From Mesostigma viride (taxonomy: Eukaryota > Streptophyta > Mesostigmatophyceae > Mesostigmatales > Mesostigmataceae): DNA of 64,000 nt. The DNA lies in the NCBI GenBank assembly GCA_009746045.1, contig RPFO01000026.1, forward strand, positions 1,635,109 to 1,699,108. The letters run 5' to 3'. The translations under genes and the position numbers were made by a program. The first letter of the stretch is position 1. Each line of letters starts with the position of its first letter. This document shows positions 30,090-62,600 of this stretch, one piece after another. The notes under the pieces were generated by a model. That model was not told the DNA's origin and did no database searches. It saw only the letters and a program-made list of their open reading frames with translations.

Positions 30090-32396
30090 TCACTGGGAGC
30101 TATGAAGGGGAGCACTCTGCTCAGAGCCCATGACGTACCACTCAGGCAAGGTGATCCCATGACGCTGACAGTAATCTAGTACAGCAGAGTGACTATTGGT
30201 GAGATCAGACAGCCACAGCCACGTAGCAGTCACCTCTAGCTCTCCCTTCCAGTGTACCTTAAACTGCAGCTGTTTAGTACGACCTTTCCCCTTCACCCTG
30301 TGAGCCAACAACCGCTCCACTTCATAGATCTTCTCCCCCTCTGAATCCAACTCATAAGGCAAGGGGGCAGACAATCTGCCTGGCAAGGTGTTACGCTTGT
30401 ACAGTTTCAGCTGTGCTAGGTGGAAAATATTATTCCTGAGCTTCCAGTGAGAAGGCACCTGGACCTGAACCACGGTACCATAGTGAAAGGTGGCCAACAC
30501 TGGGTAAGGACCCAACCAGAGTGGTTGCAGTTTCCTGCATTGCTCCTTCTCAGGCAGCACTCTGTTGGCTTCCAACAACACCAAGTCCCCAGGAGCTACA
30601 AAGGAATGACTGGCCACTGTTTGCTGCCAGGCGTTAGTCAGGTACTTGTCCTGTGTCCTCAACAGCTGGGTAGCCACAATGCTGTGAGCCTCCTGGAAGG
30701 AAGCCAACAACTGCTGGACTGAACCAAGACGTCGCTGGAAAGGGCCTTCAGCGTCTCTGTCAGGCAGTTCCAAGTCGAATGGTGTCAAGGGGCACTGGCC
30801 ATTGCAGATCACGAAGGGGGACATCTGGTGAGGAGCCAGAGGAGAGTTGTTGATTGCGAACTCTATGAAAGGTATCTTCTTGTCCCAGTCCTTGTTGTCG
30901 TGTGTACAATAGTGCTTTTGACACTCCCTGACAATTCTGTTCATCCTCTCCACCGCCCCAGTACTGGCACACCTGTAGGCCACACCGAATGCCAGCTTAG
31001 TGTCTAGGATGTCAAAGAATGACTTCCAAAACCCTGACAGCCAGAGGGGGTCCTGATCAGTGATGATCACTCTAGGCATGCCGTGCAGACGGTAGATCTC
31101 CTTCATAAACAAATCCACACACTGTGCAGCGGTGAGATGAGTATTGCAAGGAATCAGGTGGCACATCCTGGACAGCCTGTCCATGACTACTAGGATCCTG
31201 TCATTGCCACCATCTGACATGGGAAGACCACAGATAAAATCCATAGTCACACTGATCCAAGGGCGCAGGGGTATCGGCATAGCCATGGGAAAGATGGGCG
31301 TGGCTTGGTTCCTGACCTTATTTCTCTGGCAGGAGTCACAGGAATCCACATAGGCCTTAACATCCTGATAAAGGCCAGGCCACCAAAACCTCTGCTGCAC
31401 CTCATGAAGTAGCTTAGCATAACCAGGATGACATGCAGTTACATCGTCATGGAAACAATGTAACACTGTGGGAATGGCCATCTCAGGCACATACACTTTT
31501 CTAGTCACCGTGTGCTCTGCATCATGAGTGTGAACATACAGAACGCCCTCCCAGTATTCTACAGGTCTATTGCCAAAGTTGCCCCTCTGGATAGCTGCAG
31601 TAGCCATGTCCTCCGTCTTGGTGAAGGCCTTGATGACGTCCAGCAGGGAAATATTTAAAGGATTAGGCAACACCAGGTCCTTGTCAGGTCCCAGGGGCTG
31701 CATCTGCATCTCCTCTTCCTGCCCAGGGCTAGCCACCAACTGCTTGGATGAGACAGTAGTAGCTATAGGCCCTTTTGACCTTGCCATCACCTGAGAGGCC
31801 AACACCTTGGACCGGCCTACCAACACAGGGTCCATGACCCACTTCCTGGGTCTACCTCTGCTGCGCCTAGCAGGGTCTCCCTCACCTGGCTGCACTGTGG
31901 GAGTGGGCACCACACCTTCAGGAATTCTCCTAAGACTGTCAGACAGTGACTGGACACCCTCCTGGACGCCTGTCAACTCTGGGACAGAGCCCTGGTCGAT
32001 GAGCATCACGGGACCACCGTTATTCCCTACAGGTGGTGTCAACAGTTGAGAAACCTTCTGGTTGTTGGCCTGAGCTCTAGTCAAGGCTCCACACTCTACC
32101 ACAGAAATCAGGGCAGCACAGATGTCCAAGTCCTCATGAAAACTCCCCATCAAATCCCTCCTCCTGGACAGGGCGTCAGGCACCACATTCTGCGTACCAG
32201 GAATGTACCTCACAGAGAAAGGTCCAAACCCCCCCAGGAACTCCATCCATCCAGCCATCCTCTTACTCATCCGGGTCTGTTCCAACACATGTACCAAGGG
32301 CCTGTGATCAGTCATCAGGTAATAGACTCGTTGCCCTGCCCATCCCTGGCGCTGCTGGCCACAGAAAACTGAGCCCCCTTCAGTAGGTGTTCCCAC
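30090..32396 (-). CDS. pol: Gypsy RNase H end, integrase, GPY/F and chromodomain
   Basis: 768 open codons. The start is the end of RNase H (YYLMTDHRPLVHVLEQ). The HHCC zinc finger is seen as LHCFHDD, ACHPGY and CDSCQRNK. The DDE core has D in TMDFICGLP, D in IITDQDPLWLSG and E in GAVERMNR. A GPY/F-like LWLGPYPVLATF and then a chromodomain (YEVERLLAHR, FKVHWKGELEVTATWLW) finish the protein. The chromodomain is thought to direct integration to heterochromatin. The frame is a fragment of the larger pol. Confidence 0.9.
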   Translation of the reverse strand: MGTPTEGGSVFCGQQRQGWAGQRVYYLMTDHRPLVHVLEQTRMSKRMAGWMEFLGGFGPFSVRYIPGTQNVVPDALSRRRDLMGSFHEDLDICAALISVVECGALTRAQANNQKVSQLLTPPVGNNGGPVMLIDQGSVPELTGVQEGVQSLSDSLRRIPEGVVPTPTVQPGEGDPARRSRGRPRKWVMDPVLVGRSKVLASQVMARSKGPIATTVSSKQLVASPGQEEEMQMQPLGPDKDLVLPNPLNISLLDVIKAFTKTEDMATAAIQRGNFGNRPVEYWEGVLYVHTHDAEHTVTRKVYVPEMAIPTVLHCFHDDVTACHPGYAKLLHEVQQRFWWPGLYQDVKAYVDSCDSCQRNKVRNQATPIFPMAMPIPLRPWISVTMDFICGLPMSDGGNDRILVVMDRLSRMCHLIPCNTHLTAAQCVDLFMKEIYRLHGMPRVIITDQDPLWLSGFWKSFFDILDTKLAFGVAYRCASTGAVERMNRIVRECQKHYCTHDNKDWDKKIPFIEFAINNSPLAPHQMSPFVICNGQCPLTPFDLELPDRDAEGPFQRRLGSVQQLLASFQEAHSIVATQLLRTQDKYLTNAWQQTVASHSFVAPGDLVLLEANRVLPEKEQCRKLQPLWLGPYPVLATFHYGTVVQVQVPSHWKLRNNIFHLAQLKLYKRNTLPGRLSAPLPYELDSEGEKIYEVERLLAHRVKGKGRTKQLQFKVHWKGELEVTATWLWLSDLTNSHSAVLDYCQRHGITLPEWYVMGSEQSAPLHSSQ

Positions 32397-33852
32397 TTGT
32401 GACAGGCCACCACCAACCCCAGCAGCTCCTGCTCATGAACAGGGTAGTTACGTTCTGCAGACGTCATACTCCTGGACATGTATTCCACTGGTTGAGGGCC
32501 ATTACCATGATCTTGCATTAGTACTGCACCAATAGCACCCTGTGAGGCATCAGACCTAACCTGGTATGGCAAGTCTGGGTTGGGGCCCACCAGTAAGGGA
32601 GCAGTGGTAAGCTTCTGCTTCAACACATCAAAAGCTTGCTGGCATGCTGCAGTCCACTCAAAGGGAACATCCTTCTTGAGCAGGGCTAACAGGGGACCAG
32701 AGATGGCCGCCATGTCAGGGATGAACCGTCGGTACCAGCCCACCAGGCCCAGAAAGGATCTGACATCCTGAACTGACTTCAACACAGGCCACTCCAAAAC
32801 AGCAGAGACCTTGCTGGCCTCAGGAGTCATACCTGCAGCGCTCAGCTGGTAGCCCAGAAACTTCACCTCTTGGCCCCACTCCACCTTGGACCTCTTCACC
32901 GACAGATGATACTGCTGGATCACCTTAAGGACCTCTTCCACGTTCTCCAGATGCTCCCTGAAGGTACGAGAGTGTACCAGAATGTCGTCCAGGTAGACGA
33001 CCACACAAGTCCTGAAGACCACCCTGGTAGTGTCACACAAGTGGGCAATGTCCTTGAACCTGGGGTTGCGAAGGTCAGGTGAGATCTGGGAAGGGCATTT
33101 CCAGTCAGGTGGCCAAAGATGGCATTGACAAACATCTGCATGGTGGCAGGACTGTTAGAGGCACCCATGGGCATTACTGTCCACTGGAACTGTCCCCATG
33201 GGGTAGAAAAGGCCGTCTTGGGGATGTCCTCAGTAGCCACCCTGATCTGCCAGAAAGCATGCCTGAGGTCAAACTTGGTAAAGAAGGCAGCTCCTGCAGT
33301 CCTCTCCAGCAACTCATCAATTCTGGGCAGAGGGTACCTGGACTTGACAGTCACCTTGTTCAGTCCCCTCAGGTCAATGCACAACCTCCACCCCCCATCA
33401 TGCTTGGGTACAAGCAAACACCCAGAACTGAAAGGGCTGTTAGCTGGGAGGATCAGACCAGCCTCCAACAGGCCAATAAGTATGGTCTTCAGCTCTGCCA
33501 TCTCTGCAGGGCCCATCCTATACATAGGCACAAAAGGAGGACGAGCACCCTCTACCAACTTGATGACATGTGTGATGGGTCCCTCAGGAGGATACTGGGG
33601 CATCTTGTCCTCAAAGATGGCTCCATACCTGTCCAACAAGGCATCATGCTGTTGTTGTTGCTCAGTGGTGACAGTAGAGCTGACAGCATTGACAGAATGA
33701 CCACTAGCAGACTCAGGTTCATTAGGCACCAAATGCAGGAAAAAGATGTGTTCCACTGGATAGGTGGCCAAATAAGACAGAGTATGCTTGGCAGACCACA
33801 CATGCTTCAGTAGGGCAGCCCGTTTCTCCTCCAAAGTCGGCTCTTGATCCAC
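32315..33852 (-). pseudogene. pol: Gypsy reverse transcriptase and RNase H, frameshifted
   Basis: RT blocks are clear: FVPMYRMGPAEMAELK, LLVPKHDGGWRLCIDLRGLN, YPLPRIDELLE, FFTKFDLRHAFWQI, MPMGASNSPATMQMFVN, and then in the next frame VVYLDDILVHS with the YLDD active site. RNase H follows (LPYQVRSDASQGAIGAVL, NYPVHEQELLGLV). The frame changes between 33,040 and 32,920 and again near 32,396-32,315. Confidence 0.88.
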
Positions 33853-37119: not shown

Positions 37120-39990
37120 AAGCGGCAGCGAATGGCCCTCCGGGTAGGTGGGAACTGGGAATGAGGGCGGACCGACTGCGGTGTTTCAGGCCCGCACAGC
37201 GTGTCGTTATTTGTCTCCCGACTTTTTCCTTTTTTCAGCCCCCTTCATAAGCTTCTGTTGACTGAAATCGAGTTGCCATGTGTCGGCGGACGGATCGAAA
37301 CTCGACTACTAGAGTCACGGTCGGCTTTGCGCCTTCTTTTGGCCGGGGGGGGATGCGAAGCATCCCCCCCCCCTTAAGCTTGTATAATATAAAGTACATA
37401 AAACCTTCGAAATTACCTTGGACAGGCGGGGAACATGAAATATCGTGAAAATAAAAAAAAAAAACGCGAGACGCAGGCCGAGCGCGGGGTGAGGCGCGAA
37501 CCAAGTGAACCGCTTTTGCATCCAGCAATCCACTACGCTCTACAGTACTGCCTCGGCAGGGCACGTCGGTCGGTACTCAGTAGAGGCTGAGGCCTGAGCG
37601 TGTCTACAGATGTACATGTAAGATGTACTACTCATGTGCGATACTTATGGGCCTTGAGCAATTAATTAGGGTATCACTGACCTGAGACCTCCACTGACTA
37701 TAGCCTGTGGCCGCCGAAAGGGGGGCCGCCGGGCCGGGTTGGGGACGGCGTGTACCATATCTACCAAACAAACAAAAGAAATTTAATTAAATAAGTACCC
37801 ACGTGCCTTGAACGGCTGCAGGACAAACAAACAAACAAAAGGTTTTAATTAAATAATAAAAACCCGGGACTCTAACTGGCTCCCCAACAAACAATCCAGG
37901 GTTATTCGTAATGCAAATACGGCAAAAATTGACCCATAATAACAAACTTCCAATGCGGACGGTGTAATTTGGCCCTGATGACACAAACTCTAGTGCGGGG
38001 GTGAGTGCGGGGTTCCGGGACACCACCGCACTAAGTCCGACGCGCCTGCCCAGGCCACGCCGCGCCGGCCCGGCACACGAGTTACGCGGGAAAAAAGGGC
38101 CTGCCGCGCCAATTAGGACTATGGGCTCCGCCGACGCAAGTTTTAACGTGAAGGTTGTAAACGCACGTTACTTAAACTTTTTAATGAAAGATGGGTTACA
38201 GTTTGGAGCCAGTTATTACAGTTTGGGTCCCAAAAACCCTTGAAACCTTTTCTTTCGTACCATCTTGGCTGCAGATTCAAAGTGTTTGCGTACATTATCG
38301 CCGTCCAAGCACTTTGTGCCAATGGAAATGCTCAAATTGCGTACCCCCTTCACGCACCTCTCCAAATAAATTTGCTTCGCCCTTTTCTTCGAACCTTTGG
38401 TTCTTCCGAAAATGGGCTCCTCCCAGGATTTTACCCCAAAAAACGTCCATAGCCGTATCACGGAGGTTGGCCGATGCGTTTTCCTGAGAGTATCAGACTC
38501 CGTTTTTCGACGCAGGAGGGTTCTATGACGCAGGAGCAAATTGAGAGGCAGCAGTGATTGAAGGGCTTTGACAGCAGTCTAGGCGCAGGAGCAAATTGAG
38601 AGGCAGCAGTGATTGAAGGGCTTTGACAGCAGTCTAGGCGGCTTTCTGACGAATCAGATTGCATGGCGTGTGAGAATCTTACTCCTTTTAGCGTCCTTAT
38701 CCAATTATTTTTATAATTATTCTTATCCAATTATTTTTCGCGTCCTTATCCAAGAATGCATGTAGACTCGTTGCGCGACGTCTGGTGTTATTATCTCTTT
38801 GTCGGTTATCCCAGTATACTGTGTTGGAATGTCAAACTACTAGTAGTGACGCAAAGGTTGACATTCAAGCATCTTAGCTTGGTTTCGGATCGCGTTTGGC
38901 GTCCCCGTCTAACAGGGTGCTCAGGCGCAGGAAGATGCAAGTTGTTCCCTATAAGAGGGTGCTGCGCAACACCTGGTCTTTGTCTGTTTCGGATAGTTGG
39001 CTCGGCCACTTTTGCGCAAGTACGTGCGTTCTCAGACTTCTGCTTCCTGCGAAAAAAAGGTATGACCAATCAACCACTTGGCGTGCTTCTTTTAGAGATC
39101 CATGCATTTCTTTTAGAGATCCATGCATTTCTTTTAGAGATCCATGCATTAACCTGCCGTTCCTTTCTAGTTGGTCATATTCACAATTCGAGGCTCGTGA
39201 GATTCGAGAGCCCGATGTGCTCAAATTCCCCAGCAATATCAACTAACCCTACTTCTCTGGCTGCGTTTATGTGCTTTTACTTTGTTTGTGTGCACGGCCG
39301 CTTCTGTGCAGTGTGCAATCATCTAGGCAAACCATGTAAGTTTCAATCAACGTTTTGCTCAGTAAATGGTTGTGCAAAGCAGTTGAGACCACCTGCATAG
39401 TCTTCGTATCTTGCTTTGTATACCAGGCCTGATTCATGAAACAATTACGACCTCCTCTAGACTATGTTAAGTTCCATGTTCTTCCAAAAGCATTCCCTGC
39501 CAAGCGCAATCCCGGGCTTTTGCACAGCTTCAGGATCATGTACCCTTCTTATGCTCATTCAAGTCTATGGCTTGGAACCATCCCTAGGCATCTACACATC
39601 ACCCTGGATAGGAATGTGATTGCAAGTGGAGCGTGCTGAGTAGTACAAATTTGCGTATGCCGCATTTCGATACTTTCGGGTTGGTTGCGTTGAATTCTGG
39701 CCTTGTTGGCCGGGTCCATTTTTGTCTTTGTAATTTGGTTTTAAAATATTTTACTCGTCTCGTTGTAAAGCTGTGCGGGCCCCCTCCCTGGTGCCATCCT
39801 GCTATCTCACCTCAGGCGCGCTGGGCGCTGGCCCCCTCCTGCAATCTCGTCCAATCCTGAACGACCACCTCATTTGGGACATCATCACCTTGGCGAAAAG
39901 TGAAAACACGTCATATTGGTTGCTTTTCTAAATGTCCATCCTATTTCTCCATCTTTGTCGCATCGTTGTTCCACACTGCAGCCGGCTGTG
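37120..39990. other. Repeat-rich region between the Gypsy element and the CTDC-repeat gene
   Basis: 37,130-37,325 pairs with 25,025-25,210. 37,670-37,966 pairs with 20,735-21,037. A 57-bp tandem duplication (AGCAAATTGAGAGGCAGCAG...) is at 38,529-38,641. A 21-bp unit (TTTTAGAGATCCATGCATTTC) repeats three times at 39,087-39,150. The open frame at 38,756-39,400 is low-value because it spans these repeats. No gene is recognised. Confidence 0.6.
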
Positions 39991-42900
39991 ATGAAGAATC
40001 TCTGGCCCTGCCTGCCGCTGCTGGCGGCATGGCTCATGATAGCCACGTACCCTGCCGTTGCCGTGACGACCTCTTGCTTCCGGGTAATGGGATTGTGGAG
40101 CCTGCAGTTGTCTGTTCGCGTGTTTTCCAGTACAACGTGTCAAGGACCTCGTGCTTCATTGTAATGGGATTGTGGAGGCTGCATCTGCCTGTTCGCGTGT
40201 GTGATATGTTGTGGAACCTGCAGTTGTTTGTTAGTGTGTTTTTCAATACGCATCCCTATGTATTTCCTTTCTGTAATGGTCCTCAAATTATCATTAACAG
40301 CGCTCATTGATAAGCCTCGCAAAGACATCGTCAAGCCACTTACGCATCCCAACAACTATTCCTGTTTGTTGTCTCAAGTGTCGGTGTGTGTGCCTGTGTG
40401 GGGTGTTTGGGAGACTTAAGTGTCCGCCTATGTAATCGGAAAAGCTGCATATACCCGTTTCCACGTTATCAGCTTGAAGCTCCTTCATCCTGTGCGTAGG
40501 TACAGACTCCTCCTCCTGTGCACAGGTTCAACCAATCAAGAACGGGGCGCCATGTTCCATTCGGTAGCGCCCCTGCTTGCGCCAACTGTACCTTGGTACC
40601 CTATTCCTGGCCTGCTCTTGTACCAGGACACTAGCAGCGGCCAGGTCGTCTCATCTTGCCGGCCATGTGCTGTCCTAACCCTTGCAGAAACAATGCACCG
40701 CTAACGACATCAGGGTGGGGCAGCTGGTCAACGTTGACACAGGAAGCGATAGGTGCGAGAGCGCCACAGACACCGTCACCTTCACTGCCGACTGGGTGAT
40801 TACTAAGGGCCCCGATTCAATCCGCTACGACGTCGGCGTGTGGATCTCGAACGATGGCATAAACCTGGGTGAGTCATGCAGGAGGAACCGGTCAGAAACT
40901 CCGTTCAAAGCTTACCATATATCTGCGCGGGTTCCTCGCCATGCACCTTGAAATCCAACAAGTGCGATGGAATGGCTGCCACTGACGTGGATTACTTCAT
41001 GGCGGGTAGCGCCGTGGGTGACGCCTGGCTATTGATTGAGCAAAGGGGATTTGTAAGTAGATCATTCGTAAGTAAATAAACTGGTTTCTTACGTAACACT
41101 TTCGTATCTGCGAGGGGCAACTCGCTTTGTCTGTGGGTATGCAACCTTTGCTCTTTATTCTCTACTATCGCTACAGCCTACGTCCCAAACTTTAGATTCT
41201 GTATCCCCTATCTGCTAGGGAGTACGAGGGCCAAGGAAGTAGGTCGGGGTGTGTGTGGCATTGAACTCCATAATCTTAACAGTAATGTAATTTTTGTGAA
41301 ATTATTATTATTTTCCTACTCTTCCATGGGCAGGTCACGCTGCGTGTGGGTCCATGGTCATGCTGGGCTGGCAGCGCGTCTCCCTAGTCATGGCTAGCGC
41401 CTAGCTCATACGGACATATCTCTAATGCAAATTACGTGTATGTCATCATGCAGCATGGCACATCGTATTTTTTTGGTAGATATTTTGGGGTTCAAGCTGA
41501 CAGTAATAACTTATTATGGGCTACTTGTCCCTTCTACCCCCCTCCCATACAACTTTCCCCGTCCTATTTTCCAAACTCTCTCTTGCGGGTTTTGCTGCAA
41601 AATCAGCGCGTGTTCTGGTCATTGTCAATGGTTTTGCACTACAGGCGACCTGCAAGTTTGTGTTGGTGGCGAGGATATCTTTGCATTGAAATTAATCATC
41701 AGGAACACGATTACTAGAAGGTACGAGAGCCAAGAAATAAGGAGTTTATTACAAATATGAATTTTCATGGTCGGGGTTTCCACATGCGGTGTACACAAAC
41801 CATAGTTGTTTATTACATTGCTGTCATCATCGCAAACTTTCCCATGCGTGTCGCTTCCACACGTGTATTGTGTTCTCTGCAGCAAAGTTGCATCCCATGT
41901 TGCCGGCATTTCTGGGTGCCACTCCTTTCTGGCAGGTCCTAATCCATTCACTACGTCATTGCCACCTTACTTTTCATGCCAAATGGTACAAATTTCCTAC
42001 TGTCCCCAGATACATGCTCGAGCTGTGGCCAATGCTCCGTCTTCGCGCTGCCCAGCACGACTCCTGATGGTGACTCCTGCGGGGACCTTCTGGAAGAATC
42101 CAAAGGGCAAACCGAAACGATATACGGGGTCGGTCAAAATAACAGTAATGCTAGCGTGTCCCAATAGCAGCGTACGTGACACCTGCCTGCTGAACAGGGA
42201 GATCTTAAGTGTGAAACAGTTAGGAAGTTGCATAAACGTGCTTGTTTTGTCCCGAGGGGAGCCCTTGCATGGTACACTTGTTATAGAAAGAGTAGAAATA
42301 GGGAGATGTGTGGGACACTGCATCCAATACCATGATGGCTTATTGAGCTTGCTAAGAACATGCAGTGGTCCTGGAAATTTGGTCTGCATGCAATGACGGT
42401 CCACGTTCTCAACCTCAGCACCTCCTCTGTTCATCGTTCCCCCACCCTAGGCAGATGCAACAAGTGGTGAGACATGGCCAGAGGTGCATAGTGGACAGGT
42501 GGCTGTATGCATGACCGAAACCACCAGCGTGGGTAGCTTGAGTAGCACATCCTTTAAGCCGGCAACTCGTGATGCTTGCAGTAACATGTCCTGTTGAGGT
42601 GTCACGGTTGTTGTGAATACAAAGGTGTTGTGTTTGCCCTCACAAACCGACCCCAACAGAACATTATCGTTAGACAAAGCAGCGTATGCCCAACTGGCAC
42701 TGTCTATAATAAACATTCTAACGTAACCCGCTTGGTATCCTCCTCTGATTATCTATGTCCTTGCCTTTGCTATGTATGGCAAGCGTGTGCTACGTCTGTA
42801 TTTTTTTTATCGAACATGATGCTATGTGCTTAGAAGCGCAGCAAAGCGCGCGATCCCTACAGGCCACCCGCGTGTCTAGAATGTAGTCATTGGATCATGT

Positions 42901-45900
42901 TGCCTGTGATTTGGGTCTGTTTTCGTTAGAAATCGCATAACCGATGACTTCACCGTCGCAATTTGAGGCAGAAGGCCTCATTATCAATGTGTGGAACCCA
43001 TGGAACGACCGCAGTCCTTAACCCAATTTCTTGGCCTGCTTGCCTTGTTTATTGTACACTTGTCCCTATGTGCTCCCGTTGCATGGGTGGGCCGGTGGGG
43101 GGGGGGGGGGCGAGACTTTCCTGTGCAGATGACTTTGACCAACATCCCGTGTACGGCCGATGCGAACAACAACCTTAAGCTGTACTACTGCACCAGCTGG
43201 AGCCAACCCGGGGGTAATGAAGTCTGCAATGGTCCCGCCGACACCCTTCCGGGAACCCCGTCCAAGTGCGAGTGCGATTTTATCTCTGTGCCAGAGATCC
43301 CCATAGGTATGTCCTCTGCTGTCCTTAACACGCCCCTGTCAAGCCTCCCTCATATGGGCCTTTGGGTGGACTCTTCACGTGGCCGCCCAATTGCACATGT
43401 CTCATAAGCTTGCCTATGTCTCAATATGCGAAGTGCGACCAAAACTTGGATACGCTTTCTCCCTGTTCTAGTATCGGAGTGCTTTTTGTAGGTAGTCCAA
43501 TGGCTAGCATTCATCTATTTTGTGAGATGATGGAGGCGTGCGGCAGATACTGGCACGCAAGGTTTCTTTAGCAGAAACTGGGTTTATTTGGTAGTGCACA
43601 CATGGGCTTTAATAACTTCGAGAGATAAAATCGCACTCGCACTTGGACGGGGTTCCCGGAAGGGTGTCGGCGGGACCATTGCAGACTTATGACAATTTAC
43701 CCATCCTTTCTGCGTGCGCTCCCTTGCTTTTGCTTTTTATCCCCATCTTCTTTTTAACCCCATGTTCTTTTAGGAATCCCATTTACCATGCGAATGAATC
43801 CTCACCACCTCTCCCCCCCCTTTTCCTTGACATCCTGCCCAGTGCCCAATGCCCATCACAGTGGCCGGCCCCCTTGGCCCTGGCTATCATGTTGTGTTGC
43901 GGCGCGTTTTGTCTCACCACCACTACCACCACCATGTCCAGCCGATAGTGCCCAGCCAGCTCATCGATGTTCGGCTGTGTAACCCGGAGTCCCCCCGTAG
44001 GCCAACACCCAGACTACTCATTAACCCACCCAACCCTCTTTATGCACCCATTGTCCTATCCCCATTCCATTTCCCCCTTTCTGCCACTAGACCATCCAGG
44101 ATTCACATCAATCGCTGGCCATGAGGACAAACTTTTCATTTTGTCCATTGTGTTGTCATCGCATGCATACACTTGGTAATTCAATAAAATACATATATAT
44201 ATTTTTTAATATAGTTGATACCATCTATTTATTTCTTGAAGAATGTCCAACTGTCTTCCATGACATGTTCAATAATGATCGACTCCCACAGTGTACCTCT
44301 TCACTTCTTCATGTATGGCGCTGTATATATTTTGCTGTGTTTCTCACGTTCCTCCTTAGAGAAATCGTCGTTCTGGGTTGTCTGGCTCTTCTGTTTGGAT
44401 CGCGTTGGCAGGGTGTCCTGGAGGCTGCGACGATGGTTTCAGCTGTACTGTCGATGCGTGCAACCCTGGTGCTGAGGGCGCCGACGAAGATGGGTGCGTT
44501 CACACCCCCAACGCCGGCAACTGCAACGACGATGTCCCCTGCACGGACGATGCGTGCAACCCTGGTGCTGAGGGCGCCGAGGAAGATGGGTGCGTTCACA
44601 CCCCCAACGCCGGCAACTGCAACGACGATGTCCCCTGCACGGACGATGTGTGCAACCCTGGTGCTGAGGGCGCCGAGGAAGATGGGTGCGTTCACACCCC
44701 CAACGCCGGCAACTGCAACGACGATGTCCCCTGCACGGACGATGCGTGCAACCCTGGTGCTGAGGGCGCCGAGGAAGATGGGTGCGTTCACACCCCCAAC
44801 GCCGGCAACTGCAACGACGATGTCCCCTGCACGGACGATGTGTGCAACCCTGGTGCGTTGCAGTTGCCGGCGTTGGGGGTGTGAACGCACCCATCTTCCT
44901 CGGCGCCCTCAGCACCAGGGTTGCACGCATCGTCCGTGCAGGGGACATCGTCGTTGCAGTTGCCGGCGTTGGGGGTGTGAACGCACCCATCTTCCTCGGC
45001 GCCCTCAGCACCAGGGTTGCACGCATCGTCCGTGCAGGGGACATCGTCGTTGCAGTTGCCGGCGTTGGGGGTGTGAACGCACCCATCTTCCTCGGCGCCC
45101 TCAGCACCAGGGTTGCACGCATCGTCCGTGCAGGGGACATCGTCGTTGCAGTTGCCGGCGTTGGGGGTGTGAACGCACCCATCTTCCTCGGCGCCCTCAG
45201 CACCAGGGTTGCACGCATCGTCCGTGCAGGGGACATCGTCGTTGCAGTTGCCGGCGTTGGGGGTGTGAACGCACCCATCTTCCTCGGCGCCCTCAGCACC
45301 AGGGTTGCACACATCCGTCGTGCAGGGGACATCGTCGTTGCAGTTGCCGGCGTTGGGGGTGTGAACGCACCCATCTTCCTCGGCGCCCTCAGCACCAGGG
45401 TTGCACGCATCGTCCGTGCAGGGGACATCGTCGTTGCAGTTGCCGGCGTTGGGGTGTGAACGCACCCATCTTCCTCGGCGCCCTCAGCACCAGGGTTGCA
45501 CGCATCGTCCCAGCAGGGGACATCGTCGTTGCAGTTGCCGGCGTTGGGGGTGTGAACGCACCCATCTTCCTCGGCGCCCTCAGCACCAGGGTTGCACGCA
45601 TCGTCCGTGCAGGGGACATCGTCGTTGCAGTTGCCGGCGTTGGGGGTGTGAACGCACCCATCTTCCTCGGCGCCCTCAGCACCAGGGTTGCACGCATCGT
45701 CCGTGCAGGGGACATCGTCGTTGCAGTTGCCGGCGTTGGGGGTGTGAACGCACCCATCTTCCTCGGCGCCCTCAGCACCAGGGTTGCACGCATCGTCCGT
45801 GCAGGGGACATCGTCGTTGCAGTTGCCGGCGTTGGGGGTGTGAACGCACCCATCTTCCTCGGCGCCCTCAGCACCAGGGTTGCACGCATCGTCCGTGCAG

Positions 45901-48900
45901 GGGACATCGTCGTTGCAGTTGCCGGCGTTGGGGGTGTGAACGCACCCATCTTCCTCGGCGCCCTCAGCACCAGGGTTGCACACATCGTCCGTGCAGGGGA
46001 CATCGTCGTTGCAGTTGCCGGCGTTGGGGGTGTGAACGCACCCATCTTCCTCGGCGCCCTCAGCACCAGGGTTGCACACATCGTCCGTGCAGGGGACATC
46101 GTCGTTGCAGTTGCCGGCGTTGGGGGTGTGAACGCACCCATCTTCCTCGGCGCCCTCAGCACCAGGGTTGCACGCATCGTCCGTGCAGGGGACATCGTCG
46201 TTGCAGTTGCCGGCGTTGGGGGTGTGAACGCACCCATCTTCCTCGGCGCCCTCAGCACCAGGGTTGCACGCATCGTCCGTGCAGGGGACATCGTCGTTGC
46301 AGTTGCCGGCGTTGGGGGTGTGAACGCACCCATCTTCCTCGGCGCCCTCAGCACCAGGGTTGCACGCATCGTCCGTGCAGGGGACATCGTCGTTGCAGTT
46401 GCCGGCGTTGGGGGTGTGAACGCACCCATCTTCCTCGGCGCCCTCAGCACCAGGGTTGCACGCATCGTCCGTGCAGGGGACATCGTCGTTGCAGTTGCCG
46501 GCGTTGGGGGTGTGAACGCACCCATCTTCCTCGGCGCCCTCAGCACCAGGGTTGCACACATCGTCCGTGCAGGGGACATCGTCGTTGCAGTTGCCGGCGT
46601 TGGGGGTGTGAACGCACCCATCTTCCTCGGCGCCCTCAGCACCAGGGTTGCACACATCGTCCGTGCAGGGGACATCGTCGTTGCAGTTGCCGGCGTTGGG
46701 GGTGTGAACGCACCCATCTTCCTCGGCGCCCTCAGCACCAGGGTTGCACGCATCGTCCGTGCAGGGGACATCGTCGTTGCAGTTGCCGGCGTTGGGGGTG
46801 TGAACGCACCCATCTTCCTCGGCGCCCTCAGCACCAGGGTTGCACGCATCGTCCGTGCAGGGGACATCGTCGTTGCAGTTGCCGGCGTTGGGGGTGTGAA
46901 CGCACCCATCTTCCTCGGCGCCCTCAGCACCAGGGTTGCACGCATCGTCCGTGCAGGGGACATCGTCGTTGCAGTTGCCGGCGTTGGGGGTGTGAACGCA
47001 CCCATCTTCCTCGGCGCCCTCAGCACCAGGGTTGCACACATCGTCCGTGCAGGGGACATCGTCGTTGCAGTTGCCGGCGTTGGGGGTGTGAACGCACCCA
47101 TCTTCCTCGGCGCCCTCAGCACCAGGGTTGCACGCATCGTCCGTGCAGGGGACATCGTCGTTGCAGTTGCCGGCGTTGGGGGTGTGAACGCACCCATCTT
47201 CCTCGGCGCCCTCAGCACCAGGGTTGCACACATCGTCCGTGCAGGGGACATCGTCGTTGCAGTTGCCGGCGTTGGGGGTGTGAACGCACCCATCTTCCTC
47301 GGCGCCCTCAGCACCAGGGTTGCACGCATCGTCCGTGCAGGGGACATCGTCGTTGCAGTTGCCGGCGTTGGGGGTGTGAACGCACCCATCTTCGTCGGCG
47401 CCCTCAGCACCAGGGTTGCACGCATCGACAGTACAGCTGAAACCATCGTCGCAGCCTCCAGGACACCCTGCCAACGCGATCCAAACAGAAGAGCCAGACA
47501 ACCCAGAACGACGATTTCTCTAAGGAGGAACGTGAGAAACACAGCAAAATATATACAGCGCCATACATGAAGAAGTGAAGAGGTACACTGTGGGAGTCGA
47601 TCATTATTGAACATGTCATGGAAGACAGTTGGACATTCTTCAAGAAATAAATAGATGGTATCAACTATATTAAAAAATATATATATGTATTTTATTGAAT
47701 TACCAAGTGTATGCATGCGATGACAACACAATGGACAAAATGAAAAGTTTGTCCTCATGGCCAGCGATTGATGTGAATCCTGGATGGTCTAGTGGCAGAA
47801 AGGGGGAAATGGAATGGGGATAGGACAATGGGTGCATAAAGAGGGTTGGGTGGGTTAATGAGTAGTCTGGGTGTTGGCCTACGGGGGGACTCCGGGTTAC
47901 ACAGCCGAACATCGATGAGCTGGCTGGGCACTATCGGCTGGACATGGTGGTGGTAGTGGTGGTGAGACAAAACGCGCCGCAACACAACATGATAGCCAGG
48001 GCCAAGGGGGGCCGGCCACTGTGATGGGCATTGGGCACTGGGCAGGATGTCAAGGAAAAGGGGGGGGGAGAGGTGGTGAGGATTCATTCGCATGGTAAAT
48101 GGGATTCCTAAAAGAACATGGGGTTAAAAAGAAGATGGGGATAAAAAGCAAAAGCAAGGGAGCGCACGCAGAAAGGATGGGTAAATTGTCATAAGTCTGC
48201 AATGGTCCCGCCGACACCCTTCCGGGAACCCCGTCCAAGTGCGAGTGCGATTTTATCTCTCGAAGTTATTAAAGCCCATGTGTGCACTACCAAATAAACC
48301 CAGTTTCTGCTAAAGAAACCTTGCGTGCCAGTATCTGCCGCACGCCTCCATCATCTCACAAAATAGATGAATGCTAGCCATTGGACTACCTACAAAAAGC
48401 ACTCCGATACTAGAACAGGGAGAAAGCGTATCCAAGTTTTGGTCGCACTTCGCATATTGAGACATAGGGCAAGCTTATGAGACATGTGCAATTGGGCGGC
48501 CACGTGAAGAGTCCACCCAAAGGCCCATATGAGGGAGGCTTGACAGGGGCGTGTTAAGGACAGCAGAGGACATACCTATGGGGATCTCTGGCACAGAGAT
48601 AAAATCGCACTCGCACTTGGACGGGGTTCCCGGAAGGGTGTCGGCGGGACCATTGCAGACTTCATTACCCCCGGGTTGGCTCCAGCTGGTGCAGTAGTAC
48701 AGCTTAAGGTTGTTGTTCGCATCGGCCGTACACGGGATGTTGGTCAAAGTCATCTGCACAGGAAAGTCTCGCCCCCCCCCCCCCACCGGCCCACCCATGC
48801 AACGGGAGCACATAGGGACAAGTGTACAATAAACAAGGCAAGCAGGCCAAGAAATTGGGTTAAGGACTGCGGTCGTTCCATGGGTTCCACACATTGATAA

Positions 48901-51900
48901 TGAGGCCTTCTGCCTCAAATTGCGACGGTGAAGTCATCGGTTATGCGATTTCTAACGAAAACAGACCCAAATCACAGGCAACATGATCCAATGACTACAT
49001 TCTAGACACGCGGGTGGCCTGTAGGGATCGCGCGCTTTGCTGCGCTTCTAAGCACATAGCATCATGTTCGATAAAAAAAATACAGACGTAGCACACGCTT
49101 GCCATACATAGCAAAGGCAAGGACATAGATAATCAGAGGAGGATACCAAGCGGGTTACGTTAGAATGTTTATTATAGACAGTGCCAGTTGGGCATACGCT
49201 GCTTTGTCTAACGATAATGTTCTGTTGGGGTCGGTTTGTGAGGGCAAACACAACACCTTTGTATTCACAACAACCGTGACACCTCAACAGGACATGTTAC
49301 TGCAAGCATCACGAGTTGCCGGCTTAAAGGATGTGCTACTCAAGCTACCCACGCTGGTGGTTTCGGTCATGCATACAGCCACCTGTCCACTATGCACCTC
49401 TGGCCATGTCTCACCACTTGTTGCATCTGCCTAGGGTGGGGGAACGATGAACAGAGGAGGTGCTGAGGTTGAGAACGTGGACCGTCATTGCATGCAGACC
49501 AAATTTCCAGGACCACTGCATGTTCTTAGCAAGCTCAATAAGCCATCATGGTATTGGATGCAGTGTCCCACACATCTCCCTATTTCTACTCTTTCTATAA
49601 CAAGTGTACCATGCAAGGGCTCCCCTCGGGACAAAACAAGCACGTTTATGCAACTTCCTAACTGTTTCACACTTAAGATCTCCCTGTTCAGCAGGCAGGT
49701 GTCACGTACGCTGCTATTGGGACACGCTAGCATTACTGTTATTTTGACCGACCCCGTATATCGTTTCGGTTTGCCCTTTGGATTCTTCCAGAAGGTCCCC
49801 GCAGGAGTCACCATCAGGAGTCGTGCTGGGCAGCGCGAAGACGGAGCATTGGCCACAGCTCGAGCATGTATCTGGGGACAGTAGGAAATTTGTACCATTT
49901 GGCATGAAAAGTAAGGTGGCAATGACGTAGTGAATGGATTAGGACCTGCCAGAAAGGAGTGGCACCCAGAAATGCCGGCAACATGGGATGCAACTTTGCT
50001 GCAGAGAACACAATACACGTGTGGAAGCGACACGCATGGGAAAGTTTGCGATGATGACAGCAATGTAATAAACAACTATGGTTTGTGTACACCGCATGTG
50101 GAAACCCCGACCATGAAAATTCATATTTGTAATAAACTCCTTATTTCTTGGCTCTCGTACCTTCTAGTAATCGTGTTCCTGATGATTAATTTCAATGCAA
50201 AGATATCCTCGCCACCAACACAAACTTGCAGGTCGCCTGTAGTGCAAAACCATTGACAATGACCAGAACACGCGCTGATTTTGCAGCAAAACCCGCAAGA
50301 GAGAGTTTGGAAAATAGGACGGGGAAAGTTGTATGGGAGGGGGGTAGAAGGGACAAGTAGCCCATAATAAGTTATTACTGTCAGCTTGAACCCCAAAATA
50401 TCTACCAAAAAAATACGATGTGCCATGCTGCATGATGACATACACGTAATTTGCATTAGAGATATGTCCGTATGAGCTAGGCGCTAGCCATGACTAGGGA
50501 GACGCGCTGCCAGCCCAGCATGACCATGGACCCACACGCAGCGTGACCTGCCCATGGAAGAGTAGGAAAATAATAATAATTTCACAAAAATTACATTACT
50601 GTTAAGATTATGGAGTTCAATGCCACACACACCCCGACCTACTTCCTTGGCCCTCGTACTCCCTAGCAGATAGGGGATACAGAATCTAAAGTTTGGGACG
50701 TAGGCTGTAGCGATAGTAGAGAATAAAGAGCAAAGGTTGCATACCCACAGACAAAGCGAGTTGCCCCTCGCAGATACGAAAGTGTTACGTAAGAAACCAG
50801 TTTATTTACTTACGAATGATCTACTTACAAATCCCCTTTGCTCAATCAATAGCCAGGCGTCACCCACGGCGCTACCCGCCATGAAGTAATCCACGTCAGT
50901 GGCAGCCATTCCATCGCACTTGTTGGATTTCAAGGTGCATGGCGAGGAACCCGCACAGATATATGGTAAGCTTTGAACGGAGTTTCTGACCGGTTCCTCC
51001 TGCATGACTCACCCAGGTTTATGCCATCGTTCGAGATCCACACGCCGACGTCGTAGCGGATTGAATCGGGGCCCTTAGTAATCACCCAGTCGGCAGTGAA
51101 GGTGACGGTGTCTGTGGCGCTCTCGCACCTATCGCTTCCTGTGTCAACGTTGACCAGCTGCCCCACCCTGATGTCGTTAGCGGTGCATTGTTTCTGCAAG
51201 GGTTAGGACAGCACATGGCCGGCAAGATGAGACGACCTGGCCGCTGCTAGTGTCCTGGTACAAGAGCAGGCCAGGAAGATGGGTGCGTTCACACCCCCAA
51301 CGCCGGCAACTGCAACGACGATGTCCCCTGCACGGACGATGCGTGCAACCCTGGTGCTGAGGGCGCCGAGGAAGATGGGTGCGTTCACACCCCCAACGCC
51401 GGCAACTGCAACGACGATGTCCCCTGCACGGACGATGCGTGCAACCCTGGTGCTGAGGGCGCCGAGGAAGATGGGTGCGTTCACACCCCCAACGCCGGCA
51501 ACTGCAACGACGATGTCCCCTGCACGGACGATGCGTGCAACCCTGGTGCTGAGGGCGCCGAGGAAGATGGGTGCGTTCACACCCCCAACGCCGGCAACTG
51601 CAACGACGATGTCCCCTGCACGGACGATGTGTGCAACCCTGGTGCTGAGGGCGCCGAGGAAGATGGGTGCGTTCACACCCCCAACGCCGGCAACTGCAAC
51701 GACGATGTCCCCTGCACGGACGATGTGTGCAACCCTGGTGCTGAGGGCGCCGAGGAAGATGGGTGCGTTCACACCCCCAACGCCGGCAACTGCAACGACG
51801 ATGTCCCCTGCACGGACGATGCGTGCAACCCTGGTGCTGAGGGCGCCGAGGAAGATGGGTGCGTTCACACCCCCAACGCCGGCAACTGCAACGACGATGT

Positions 51901-54346
51901 CCCCTGCACGGACGATGCGTGCAACCCTGGTGCTGAGGGCGCCGAGGAAGATGGGTGCGTTCACACCCCCAACGCCGGCAACTGCAACGACGATGTCCCC
52001 TGCACGGACGATGCGTGCAACCCTGGTGCTGAGGGCGCCGAGGAAGATGGGTGCGTTCACACCCCCAACGCCGGCAACTGCAACGACGATGTCCCCTGCA
52101 CGGACGATGCGTGCAACCCTGGTGCTGAGGGCGCCGAGGAAGATGGGTGCGTTCACACCCCCAACGCCGGCAACTGCAACGACGATGTCCCCTGCACGGA
52201 CGATGTGTGCAACCCTGGTGCTGAGGGCGCCGAGGAAGATGGGTGCGTTCACACCCCCAACGCCGGCAACTGCAACGACGATGTCCCCTGCACGGACGAT
52301 GTGTGCAACCCTGGTGCTGAGGGCGCCGAGGAAGATGGGTGCGTTCACACCCCCAACGCCGGCAACTGCAACGACGATGTCCCCTGCACGGACGATGCGT
52401 GCAACCCTGGTGCTGAGGGCGCCGAGGAAGATGGGTGCGTTCACACCCCCAACGCCGGCAACTGCAACGACGATGTCCCCTGCACGGACGATGCGTGCAA
52501 CCCTGGTGCTGAGGGCGCCGAGGAAGATGGGTGCGTTCACACCCCCAACGCCGGCAACTGCAACGACGATGTCCCCTGCACGGACGATGCGTGCAACCCT
52601 GGTGCTGAGGGCGCCGAGGAAGATGGGTGCGTTCACACCCCCAACGCCGGCAACTGCAACGACGATGTCCCCTGCACGGACGATGCGTGCAACCCTGGTG
52701 CTGAGGGCGCCGAGGAAGATGGGTGCGTTCACACCCCCAACGCCGGCAACTGCAACGACGATGTCCCCTGCTGGGACGATGCGTGCAACCCTGGTGCTGA
52801 GGGCGCCGAGGAAGATGGGTGCGTTCACACCCCCAACGCCGGCAACTGCAACGACGATGTCCCCTGCACGGACGATGCGTGCAACCCTGGTGCTGAGGGC
52901 GCCGAGGAAGATGGGTGCGTTCACACCCCCAACGCCGGCAACTGCAACGACGATGTCCCCTGCACGACGGATGTGTGCAACCCTGGTGCTGAGGGCGCCG
53001 AGGAAGATGGGTGCGTTCACACCCCCAACGCCGGCAACTGCAACGACGATGTCCCCTGCACGGACGATGCGTGCAACCCTGGTGCTGAGGGCGCCGAGGA
53101 AGATGGGTGCGTTCACACCCCCAACGCCGGCAACTGCAACGACGATGTCCCCTGCACGGACGATGCGTGCAACCCTGGTGCTGAGGGCGCCGAGGAAGAT
53201 GGGTGCGTTCACACCCCCAACGCCGGCAACTGCAACGACGATGTCCCCTGCACGGACGATGCGTGCAACCCTGGTGCTGAGGGCGCCGAGGAAGATGGGT
53301 GCGTTCACACCCCCAACGCCGGCAACTGCAACGACGATGTCCCCTGCACGGACGATGCGTGCAACCCTGGTGCTGAGGGCGCCGAGGAAGATGGGTGCGT
53401 TCACACCCCCAACGCCGGCAACTGCAACGACGATGTCCCCTGCACGGACGATGCGTGCAACCCTGGTGCTGAGGGCGCCGAGGAAGATGGGTGCGTTCAC
53501 ACCCCCAACGCCGGCAACTGCAACGACGATGTCCCCTGCACGGACGATGCGTGCAACCCTGGTGCTGAGGGCGCCGAGGAAGATGGGTGCGTTCACACCC
53601 CCAACGCCGGCAACTGCAACGACGATGTCCCCTGCACGGACGATGTGTGCAACCCTGGTGCTGAGGGCGCCGAGGAAGATGGGTGCGTTCACACCCCCAA
53701 CGCCGGCAACTGCAACGACGATGTCCCCTGCACGGACGATGCGTGCAACCCTGGTGCTGAGGGCGCCGAGGAAGATGGGTGCGTTCACACCCCCAACGCC
53801 GGCAACTGCAACGACGATGTCCCCTGCACGACGGATGCGTGCAACCCTGGTGCTGAGGGCGCCGACGAAGATGGGTGCGTTCACACCCCAGTTGACAGCT
53901 TCTGCAACGATGGCGACAAGTGCACGTCCGACACGTGCAATCGCTCAGCTGGCTGCGTGAACGCCCCCATCTGCCAAAGTGAGGCGTGCTGCTGTCCAGA
54001 TGGTACCTGCGTGCCCAAGATCCCGGGCGTGGATTGCGACTTCACCTGTTCTAATGCGGCGTGCTCCGCGAAAGGCACCGCAAACATCAAGTGCAAGTGC
54101 ATCAAGGACTGCAAAGGCAACACGTGCAGCAGCGTGCTCGGCAACCCCTGCCGCTCCAACGGCGTATGCTGCTGCGCGATTGGTACCAGTACTTCCAACC
54201 CGCCGAATCCGAACTCCAAGTACATTCAGAACTGCGTCGACTGCTCCCAGCCCTGCGGCTCTCGCCCAAATCAAGTATGCTTGGGCAACTATTATCACGG
54301 CACGATCCCCCAGCTGAAGGATGTCTGCGATGAGGCCATCTTCTAA
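39991..54346 (+). CDS. Secreted cysteine-rich CTDC-repeat protein (interrupted by inverted insertion)
   Basis: Exon 1 (39,991-40,083) encodes a signal peptide, MKNLWPCLPLLAAWLMIA. Exon 2 (40,688-40,868) encodes KQCTANDIRVGQLVNVDT and VGVWISNDGINL. A likely exon from 42,010 encodes DTCSSCGQCSVFALPSTTPD then GDSCGDL; its donor is unresolved. An exon at 43,129-43,306 encodes MTLTNIPCTADANNN and CKCEC-like PSKCECDF. The last exon starts at 44,412 with CPGGCDDGFSCTVDAC, then 32-residue repeats (CNPGAEGAEEDGCVHTPNAG, NCNDDVPCTDDA), and ends at 53,890-54,346 with a Cys-rich tail. The phases 1/1 and the 43,306-to-44,412 join agree. The repeat fits the Dicty_CTDC type known from Dictyostelium matrix proteins. 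A 6.4-kb inverted copy at 44,858-51,273 interrupts it. Function as an extracellular matrix or wall protein is inferred. Confidence 0.75.
43621..43688 (-). repeat. 68-bp inverted copy of exon sequence inside the next intron
   Basis: This is the perfect reverse complement of coding positions 43,220-43,287 of the upstream exon. Both arms of the large palindrome carry it (second copy at about 48,193-48,260), so it predates the large inverted copy. Confidence 0.93.
44461..44857 (+). repeat. CTDC array segment 1 (forward, about 4 units)
   Basis: The 96-bp period is exact: CAACCCTGG starts at 44,461, 44,557, 44,653 and so on. The variants at the last alpha position read A, V, A, V in order. The segment breaks off in unit 5 after CCCTGGTGC. 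Confidence 0.92.
44858..47430 (-). repeat. CTDC array segment 2 (inverted, about 26.5 units)
   Basis: The same 96-bp unit in reverse orientation. Read on the minus strand from 47,430, the variant order is A, V, A, V, A, A, A, V, V, four A, V, V, four A, a unique PCWDDAC unit, A, PCTTDVC, and four A. A single base is missing in one CCCCC run near 45,452, which shifts the frame inside this copy only. Confidence 0.92.
44858..51273 (-). pseudogene. Inverted partial copy of the CTDC-repeat gene
   Basis: 47,023-51,277 mirrors 40,604-44,856 (coordinate sums 91,879 to 91,881), so the arms are about 4.25 kb. The copy carries exon 2, the intermediate exons, the 5' part of the last exon and about 26 repeat units, but not exon 1. 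The arms differ by homopolymer lengths (for example the G-run at 43,097 against the C-run at 48,776) and at least one substitution (C at 40,925 in CTGCGCGGG, against CTGTGCGGG in the other arm). Confidence 0.88.
51274..53890 (+). repeat. CTDC array segment 3 (forward, about 27 units)
   Basis: The variant order is A, A, A, V, V, four A, V, V, four A, PCWDDAC, A, PCTTDVC, six A, V, A, PCTTDAC, then the unique tail. It starts exactly where segment 1 stops (unit 5), apart from about 12 bp. Confidence 0.92.
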
Positions 54347-59638: not shown

Positions 59639-62600
59639 TTAGGTGGAGGGCAATTTCAAAATAGCCCGCCAGGCCCGAGGGGGGCAGGCGGCCATGGCCC
59701 GAAGAATAACCTCAGGCAGCTGCACCTCCAAACTGCGGTGCAAGCCCACATAATGGGCAACCGTGGAGCTGCTAAGCCAGCGCCCCCGGCCCTGGATGTC
59801 CCCCATGCTGCGACCCGCGAGGAAATCGTGAGTGGCACCTCCATGCCGCAGCCCGTGAATGGTGAAAATCTGGGCGACCCCCAAGGCCTGACTCGCAGCC
59901 TGCCAAATGCGCCGGAATTGCGGGTAGGTGAAAGGGAACACGGCCTCCCAAGCGTGCTTACCCGCGATGCAGTGACGGAGGATGGTTTCAGACATCACAT
60001 CTTCTACCACCACTGACTGAGTCTTGCCCTTAGAGGTCTTGGTAGACCTCAGCAGTAGGGCGCCCCGTTGAGCCGGCCCAAGCCGAACGTCAGGCTGGAG
60101 GCGCACATGGCCAACACGGAGGTTCAGCGCCTCCGAGATTCGCAGGTAATGGCGGAACACGATGACAACCAGCAGGCCCGCAAGGCGCTGACCTTGCATG
60201 ACCATCGTGCTGGCAAGTGCAAACGCCGCCTCCCATGGAATGGGAGGAGGGGCACGGGGGGGCACAAGTGTTTTCCACCCAGCGAGGACGCCACGGGCCA
60301 AGTCCCACCGCTTCACCATACCGGGATAATAAAGTTGCAACCCCATCAAGGCATTGACACACACTTGGCGGCTGTACCCCCGAAAATGAGCCCAGGCGAC
60401 ATACGCACAAAATGTCTCCTCAAGGGTGTCAGCTCGTGACGATGACCCGTCCGCCCGCCCACCAGCCTCCCACCAAGTCAAGAGGGAATCAAGACCACGA
60501 CGGTAGGCCAGCAAAGTAGCCGGCTTTACTTTCCCCTCTAGCAATGGAAGGTAGCTAACAGGTGCAGGGGGCCCCGGGTTAGGATGGATGCCTTCCGCGG
60601 TCAGGTCGCGCACCCAGCCTGCCAAGAAAGTCGCCATGGATTGGCCGCGAGAAACGCCATCGGCTGGTTGAAGTGCACTCGGCGTCCACACCCACTGGGA
60701 ACGACTCCCCGTGGCGAGGGTCAGCGCGCACAAGCGGCGGCACTGCTTGTTGAGCTTGTGGGATGAGGACCGCCCCTTAGCCAAGCAGCCCAACGCCGCG
60801 GTGGAGTCCACCAACCTCACCACCCGCTTGCCTCGGTTTGCCAAGCTGCGCGCACTCCTCTCCACGCCCTTCACTGCAGCCCGCACCTCCTTCTCGTTGA
60901 TGTGCATCCCCGGATCCCGCCAACGACTCCGGACCCCAACCCGCCATTGCTGGCTAGTGATTGCTTGTTGCGCCCGCGCGCTCAGTGGCCTAGGGCCAGC
61001 GTAGGCCACCTCACTTGGTATGAGCAAAGTCGGGTACCCCCGCACCTCTCGTGCCCTCGCCAGCTCCGTCACATCGCCCGGCTCCATGGTTGCGTACACG
61101 ACACCTTGCCCGTAGGTGGACGCGTCAGATGCAACCACCTCACGGGCCAAAGGTGCGCTTCGGTCAACCCTTAGCATGGGAGCCAAGGCCAGGGCACACT
61201 CTAACTCCTCCCGCACCCCGGCCCACAGCACCCAGGATCGCTGCCCCCACCCTTGCAGGCTGATGAATTTGAAACATTGCTGCCAAATGGACAAGCAGCT
61301 GCGGCTTAACATCTGCAGCCACAACCACCGCCCCAAGACGGCAGCCAGCCCCTCGGCCGTAGCTCGGCCTCGAGTGAGTATAGCCTGCGTGTGGGCGATC
61401 ACAAGGTTGAGCTGCTTGACCGTTGGTTCCAGCACGCCGTTCCGTCGGTGCACCACCCCTAGGGCTTCTAGCTCGTCCCCTTCCAGGCTCGCCATCTTAG
61501 TCTTCTCCTTAGACGGCACAAGGTTGTTAGGGAGGTAGCCTTCCTCAATAGCGCGCGTGATGAGCTGGTTCACCGCCTCGCAGGTCCGCCCGTTGCTGGC
61601 CACCAAGTCATCAATGGTGATGGACAGCATGGGGGCAGGGGGGTTTTCCAGGTCAATCTGAAGCTCCCCGGCGCGCTCCTCCTTGTACTCGATGGCCAAG
61701 CGCAGTGGCTGGCCACACTCGTCGCGCACCAAGGTGAGCTCACCTGCGCTTGAGAGGTAGTTGACCTGGCGCCTCGGATCCAGGGCACCGGTCATGTAGA
61801 GCACCATCTCATGGATGGCCTCCCCCAGCGCCACCGCATGGGAATGTCCCATGGCCAGCACCTTGAGCACGGGCCACACCTTCCGCCTGGGCCCTGCCAG
61901 ACCTACGCTAGTCGACCACACACTAGGAAGCCCTTGGTAGTCCCACCACCACTCGGGCACCTCGATGGAATAGTAGTATGACACGAGGTCGCTCTTGGCG
62001 CAGTAGCACCAGCCTTTGATGTAGACCTCCACGAGGATGCCCAGGTGGGGTAGCAGGATCTTGGGGGGGTCCACCCACAGCAGGTTGCCCAGCTTCCTGT
62101 TGACGATGAACCGAAGCTCACCCACCCCCTTGGCCACTCCAAAGCAGCCATCCACCCACTTGGGCCGCCTCTCCCGGAACGCCACCATGCCCACGCCCGC
62201 TGCCCGGCTCATGAGCTTGCCCCATTCAGCCATGGAGCATCCCCGGCTGGGCTTGGGCACATTCCAATACTTTGCGCTCGCCACGACCGCTGGCTTGATG
62301 CAGTTCTCTTCGCTGGCATATATCTCCCGCCAGCTCGGCCGCATAGCCAACAGGTCGAGCAGCCGTGCCTTCCCCGCCACCTCCGCCTTTGGTAGACTCA
62401 CCGCGTCCGCGCGCAGTTGTTCATACTTATTCTGCTTCCCATATATTGCATCAGCACCTTCTTGCTCCTGGCCTGTCGCAACGCCCCCTACGCGGCGACT
62501 GTGCCAGGTGCAGTGCCTCTTGACCCTCGCAAGGGCCTCCTCCCTCCCCTTAGAGCACGCCCCTCTAGGGTTAGGAGGAGGGTCTTGCCCCCCTCCCCAC

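Follow-up and report, generated by a model that had tools for sequence, protein, structure and literature searches.

How a gene comes to be broken by an inverted copy of its own middle part, and whether this happened in the cell or in the making of the assembly, are the questions raised by a locus of the streptophyte Mesostigma viride. The locus lies in a stretch of 64,000 nucleotides (the window, positions 1,635,109 to 1,699,108 of contig RPFO01000026.1), and in the assembled sequence its cysteine-rich repeat gene is interrupted by a 6.4-kb inverted copy of this kind. We favour, at slightly better than an even chance, a very recent in vivo templated inverted insertion, produced by an accident of repair or replication, over an artefact of library or assembly. 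The artefact, in which a chimera, be it a molecule or a read, or else the reversal of a read within the tandem array, would disguise a true gene with one uninterrupted array, is a serious contender that we put somewhat below even.

The gene is read on the plus strand. Its predicted first coding exon (39991..40049, 3' end approximate) is suggested by an open frame and by a tblastx match of 39966-40049 to a paralog, and its methionine at 39991 would begin a sequence that, read by eye, resembles a signal peptide; positions 40014-40043 share 93% DNA identity with the paralog. Two exons with AG/GT borders and homologues in the paralog lie at 40688..40868 and 43129..43306. The array is a G+C-rich coding minisatellite of 96-bp units encoding 32 residues that include cysteine, and it is followed by a cysteine-rich 3' coding part (53890..54346), with its homologue in the same order in the paralog. 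Along 51273-53889 unit variants recur every six units (units 8, 9 and 14, 15 carry the same change), which looks like a sign of block-wise array growth. The Pfam family Dicty_CTDC (PF00526) matches one stretch near the array end at 38.2 bits, against a curated cut-off of 27, and 53837-54343 at 29.9 bits; none of the repeated units scores above the cut-off when taken one at a time. Three of the four exon pieces have no Pfam match, and the four pieces searched in NCBIfam gave no family. The 3' part of the protein has eight matches at 32-48% identity, with none among phage records, and the window yielded neither tRNA genes nor Rfam families.

The paralog, traced through a 99-bp match at 77%, lies on the minus strand of another contig (C1106:4711177-4731176). 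It matches window positions 39966-40049, 40694-40882, 43126-43326, the array, 53978-54193 and 54221-54262, all in the same order and on one strand, and it has no inversion. Its array is different (a 159-bp unit in 5.5 copies, unrelated to the 96-bp array), as though the flanking exons had been kept and the repeat exchanged. Weaker tblastx matches, such as that of 40419-40475, fall out of order and we take them as chance. Our view of the ancestral layout is drawn from this one diverged paralog, which is colinear and uninterrupted; an orthologue was not found.

Self-comparison identifies the insert (44857..51272, 6,416 bp, minus strand) as a single unbroken parental stretch that corresponds to 40604/40609-44856, 11 bp absent from the direct strand, and 51273-53428. 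The 5' source arm stands in direct orientation at 40604..44856, where it runs from intron 1 to position 14 of array unit 5, and inverted at 47023..51277, of which the last five bases (51273-51277) are common with the array beyond; the arms 40604-44856 and 47023-51277 are 99.88% identical. The other part, 44857-47011, is the reverse complement of about 51273-53428 with zero mismatches and one 1-base gap. Read unit by unit, array segment 1 (44459..44856, plus strand) holds units 1-4 and 14 bp of unit 5, the inverted array part (44857..47022, minus strand) runs from unit 27 to unit 5, and segment 3 (51273..53889, plus strand) goes from position 26 of unit 5 through units 6-31 into the start of a degenerate unit 32. 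On the minus strand the insert thus carries units 1 to 26, among them a complete unit 5, and a portion of unit 27. The reading frame that enters from segment 1 stops at 44882, 26 bases beyond the left junction, and that of segment 3 is open only from 51251.

An earlier note on this DNA had segment 1 end and segment 3 restart within unit 5, and the unit-by-unit reading agrees. The loss it placed there is real, with a measured size of 11 bp in place of its "about 12 bp": the direct strand is without TGAGGGCGCCG (11 bp, unit 5 positions 15-25), and the same bases are kept in the insert at 47012-47022. If the common AGGAA is assigned to the insert, the loss grows to up to 16 bp. The same five bases, being common to both sides, allow the source end to lie anywhere in 40604-40609, so the proposed extent from about unit 27 back to 40,604 holds with that latitude. 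The source end probably falls in intron 1 as we predict it, and the inverted copy would then be without the predicted start codon, exon 1 and the upstream region. The description of the insert as an inverted copy of the gene's own 5' half therefore stands as to the inversion and not as to a whole half, since the copied part begins in intron 1.

The variants of the units fix the register. Unit n of segment 3 corresponds to insert unit n+5 with 0 of 21 compared units differing (for this count insert unit 21, which is one C short, was swapped for the consensus), and each of the other 17 of the 18 shifts tested gives at least four differing units, the nearest 4 of 15. Between segment 1 and insert units 1-4 there are 0 differences in 4. 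That the insert is unbroken, retains the 11 bp lost at the target and has a unique register argues for an insertion in the cell. The earlier proposal that the gene without its insert is one continuous array of roughly 31 units is supported as to continuity by the colinear, uninterrupted paralog, and its count becomes 31 full units and a degenerate 32nd. An uninterrupted paralog also suits an artefact, as does a site within a tandem array. Against an artefact, a search with 3,901 source bases returned, among the best candidates scored, no further uninterrupted copy in the 2,243 contigs (439.9 Mb) of the assembly.

The differences between the copies bear on age. Over ~6.4 kb these amount to one C/T change at a CpG (40926) and five 1-base homopolymer indels, three of the five in runs of only 2-6 bases; unit 21, one C short in the insert, has its frame broken on the insert side only. 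The comparison set was drawn from the joined 264-kb neighbourhood less 48,929 bases and consists of repeat pairs that reach 400 bp and 93% identity, excluding the repeat-gene locus itself, a 54-bp array and overlapping tandem copies. Its 15 rows, of which three are nested and some have copies in common, contain 218 substitutions and 28 indels, and short homopolymer indels make up 3 of these 246 differences. The locus departs strongly from this set, with Fisher p values of 1.6e-4 and 4e-8, which are optimistic as rows share copies. In our reading, sequencing errors that remained account for the differences at the locus and the copies have hardly diverged; with a true divergence near zero the insert is either very young or an artefact. 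This near-zero divergence and the homopolymer type of the differences are points for an artefact. They weigh correspondingly against the in vivo insertion, as five homopolymer indels in six differences would also fit a copy built from few reads, and the indel in unit 21 disrupts the frame of the insert alone. A young real insert with arms that are hard to polish predicts the same differences, so they do not decide.

At the left junction (44856..44857), position 14 of unit 5 meets position 69 of the inverted unit 27 with 1 bp in common; at the right one (51273..51277) the microhomology is AGGAA. Both homologies had been noticed before and both were found again. When positions near 40604 are paired with all array phases, at least 5 bp of homology is found at only 0.5% of the pairs, which speaks for the in vivo reading, and by the same chance distribution at least 1 bp, as on the left, occurs at 44% of pairs, which speaks against it. 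The left join is 55 of 96 bases off the array phase, and no fold at one point accounts for it, even with slippage by whole units. The right junction connects intron 1 with unit 5, that is, its source side lies outside the array. As the array is not self-complementary and the joins are off phase, an overlap of reads does not explain the junctions. These features count for the in vivo insertion and against an artefact, above all in its form of palindromic reads, which the earlier note had offered and which fits poorly with a left join of unit position 14 to inverted position 69 and a right join of intron 1 to unit 5. We also rejected the idea that the left junction arose from a fold-back or a hairpin, given the off-phase join and a stem of only 6 bp; an array joined to its own inverse would yield at least 42 bp in 31% of phase pairs. 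Stems of 6 bp, present at both junctions, are expected by chance in ~5-8% of joins, a further point on which the in vivo reading gains no significant support. Of 200 shuffles, 22 fold as well as the hairpin at 40604 and 25 as well as that at the right junction, neither being significant, and strong self-structure of the array unit was not found (z 0.80 and 0.68).

According to the sections of PMC1855051 that treat them, 85% of amplification chimeras were inverted (406/475) and most joined sequences less than 10 kb apart, a geometry that the insert shares; inverted duplications also entered an assembly of amplified DNA, as the relevant part of PMC6218980 describes. These reports favour an artefact and weaken the case for an event in the cell. 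On the other hand, 93.5% of the inverted chimeras below 10 kb in the same sections of PMC1855051 had at least 2 bp of complementarity, while our left junction has 1 bp. Moreover, it is awkward for an artefact that the second junction brings the sequence back to within 11 bp of the first and that one of the two has 5 bp of microhomology, and a departure-return gap of this size is that of break repair or a local switch. Contigs of megabase size (5.27 Mb for the contig of the insert, C887, and 12.1 Mb for C1106) likewise suggest that the library was not strongly amplified.

A second, smaller inversion lies in the same gene. Positions 43220..43287 (plus strand), within the exon 43129..43306, recur as a perfect 68-bp inverted copy at 43621..43688 in the following intron, and the corresponding stretch of the paralog has no inverted repeat. 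Both 68-bp copies are carried inside the 6.4-kb insert as well, so that, in the sequence as assembled, the 68-bp event is the older one. It points to a similar process at the same gene and to that extent supports the in vivo reading. We make no claim that it is unique: outside the region, the unmasked neighbourhood has 14 more rows of inverted pairs (at least 28 bp, 93% identity, within 6 kb, low-complexity pairs dropped), some of which match further copies or are simple repeats.

Upstream of the window, C887 ~1619179-1628724 is a 9.5-kb tandem array of a ~54-bp unit with ~97% identity between shifted copies, and at ~1570080-1571412 and 1574053-1575382 of the same contig stands an inverted pair with 1.3-kb arms that are 99.3% identical and 2.6 kb apart; unlike the 6.4-kb insert, this pair shows six mismatches and three gap letters. 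Within the window, the minus strand at ~30090-33852 encodes reverse transcriptase, RNase H, integrase and chromodomain in adjacent frames, an element that we take to be Ty3-like, and at 59639-63352 a 1,237-aa open frame ends in a tyrosine-recombinase (Phage_integrase) domain, presumably that of an element perhaps DIRS-like. The retroelement domains, together with the GT-AG borders of the exons, indicate eukaryotic DNA. A near-perfect palindrome of 44 bp is found at 21013-21056.

The anatomy, the register, the homologies at the junctions, the stop of the frame and the layout of the paralog can be read from the sequence; that the insertion took place in the cell, by which steps, from which template and with which enzymes, is what we infer. 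A fork or a break end in unit 5 would have primed on the opposite strand at unit 27 with almost no homology, using as template a second, intact copy, namely the sister chromatid or the homologue. Synthesis would then have run backwards for some 6.4 kb, from unit 27 to unit 1, across the upstream exons and into intron 1, before the strand rejoined the other end via the 5-bp AGGAA, 11 bp past the point of departure. The product would be a self-nested inverted insertion with the reading frame cut off in unit 5. In four-point notation the order is 3-1-4-2, with points 1 and 4 just 11 bp apart, and as point 2 lies ahead of point 1 the switch would be an inter-strand one by the rule given in the relevant part of PMC7954356. 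The two template switches proposed in the earlier note fit both junctions. So does break repair: a break in unit 5 would lose 11 bp and capture one inverted strand copied from the intact sister or homologue.

Could the insert instead be maintained for a function, for example in silencing the gene family through hairpin RNA or in serving as a switchable segment? We consider this very improbable. In its favour, RNA transcribed through 44857 should, from the sequence, pair with itself across array units, the locus has long inverted repeats, and the gene has one paralog or more. However, the insert is of near-zero age, its ends have no sign of a recombinase site or of a target duplication, 11 bp being lost instead, the frame is truncated at 44882, and the copy is without the predicted exon 1. 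A broader idea, which we hold to be unlikely though less so, is that the insertion is real, that inverted template switching has a hot spot in this coding-minisatellite gene and that its product could supply hairpin RNA for silencing the family. If the hot-spot idea were true, the perfect 68-bp event and the self-spanning 6.4-kb 3-1-4-2 event would show one process at work over a hundred-fold range of size.

Whether accident or artefact, the locus represents no new kind of system; the kind of event is already known, and the locus is a good example of it for its size, its self-spanning layout and its unit markers. A real insertion would be a fresh and fully readable inverted template-switch event on the kilobase scale, in which unit-by-unit markers show an intact template and fix all four switch points, and it would also illustrate how a gene can be broken by the coding minisatellite that it contains. 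An artefact would be a warning that megabase contigs can contain gene-breaking inverted copies that are no simple palindromes and would slip past palindrome filters.

Among known artefacts are fold-back reads, defined in the pertinent passage of PMC12870357 as reads that come back on the opposite strand at a distance of up to 200 bp; like them, the insert is an inverted copy of neighbouring sequence, but neither of its junctions comes back so close, even when shifts by whole repeat units are allowed for. Chimeras of multiple displacement amplification are also inverted, less than 10 kb apart and of small complementarity, but those described in the portion of PMC1855051 concerned join two sequences, whereas the insert has a pair of junctions with a return to within 11 bp and stands in a contig of 5.27 Mb. 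Small inverted triplications, which the excerpted account in PMC13334657 attributes to replication error, similarly place a local inverted copy between direct copies, but they are duplicate-inverted-duplicate structures of about 150 bp; ours is kilobases long and, setting aside the mutual similarity of array units, has each arm twice and the 11 bp once, so we rejected this class. In yeast, according to the relevant text of PMC11724301, hybrids of microhomology-primed synthesis and end joining occur at far smaller size. Local insertions there measure 2 to about 150 bp and are fold-back primed, unlike the present 6.4 kb with no fold-back, but the templated inverted insertions at double-strand breaks share with ours the loss at the break, the nearby inverted source and 0-5 bp of microhomology at the other end. 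Finally, the four-point template-switch model, in the part of PMC7954356 that sets it out, has templates within tens to hundreds of nucleotides. A template of 6.4 kb spanning its own insertion site is outside the class as studied there, but the insert has the same hallmarks, being the reverse complement of a nearby continuous template with a return close to the departure, at 11 bp.
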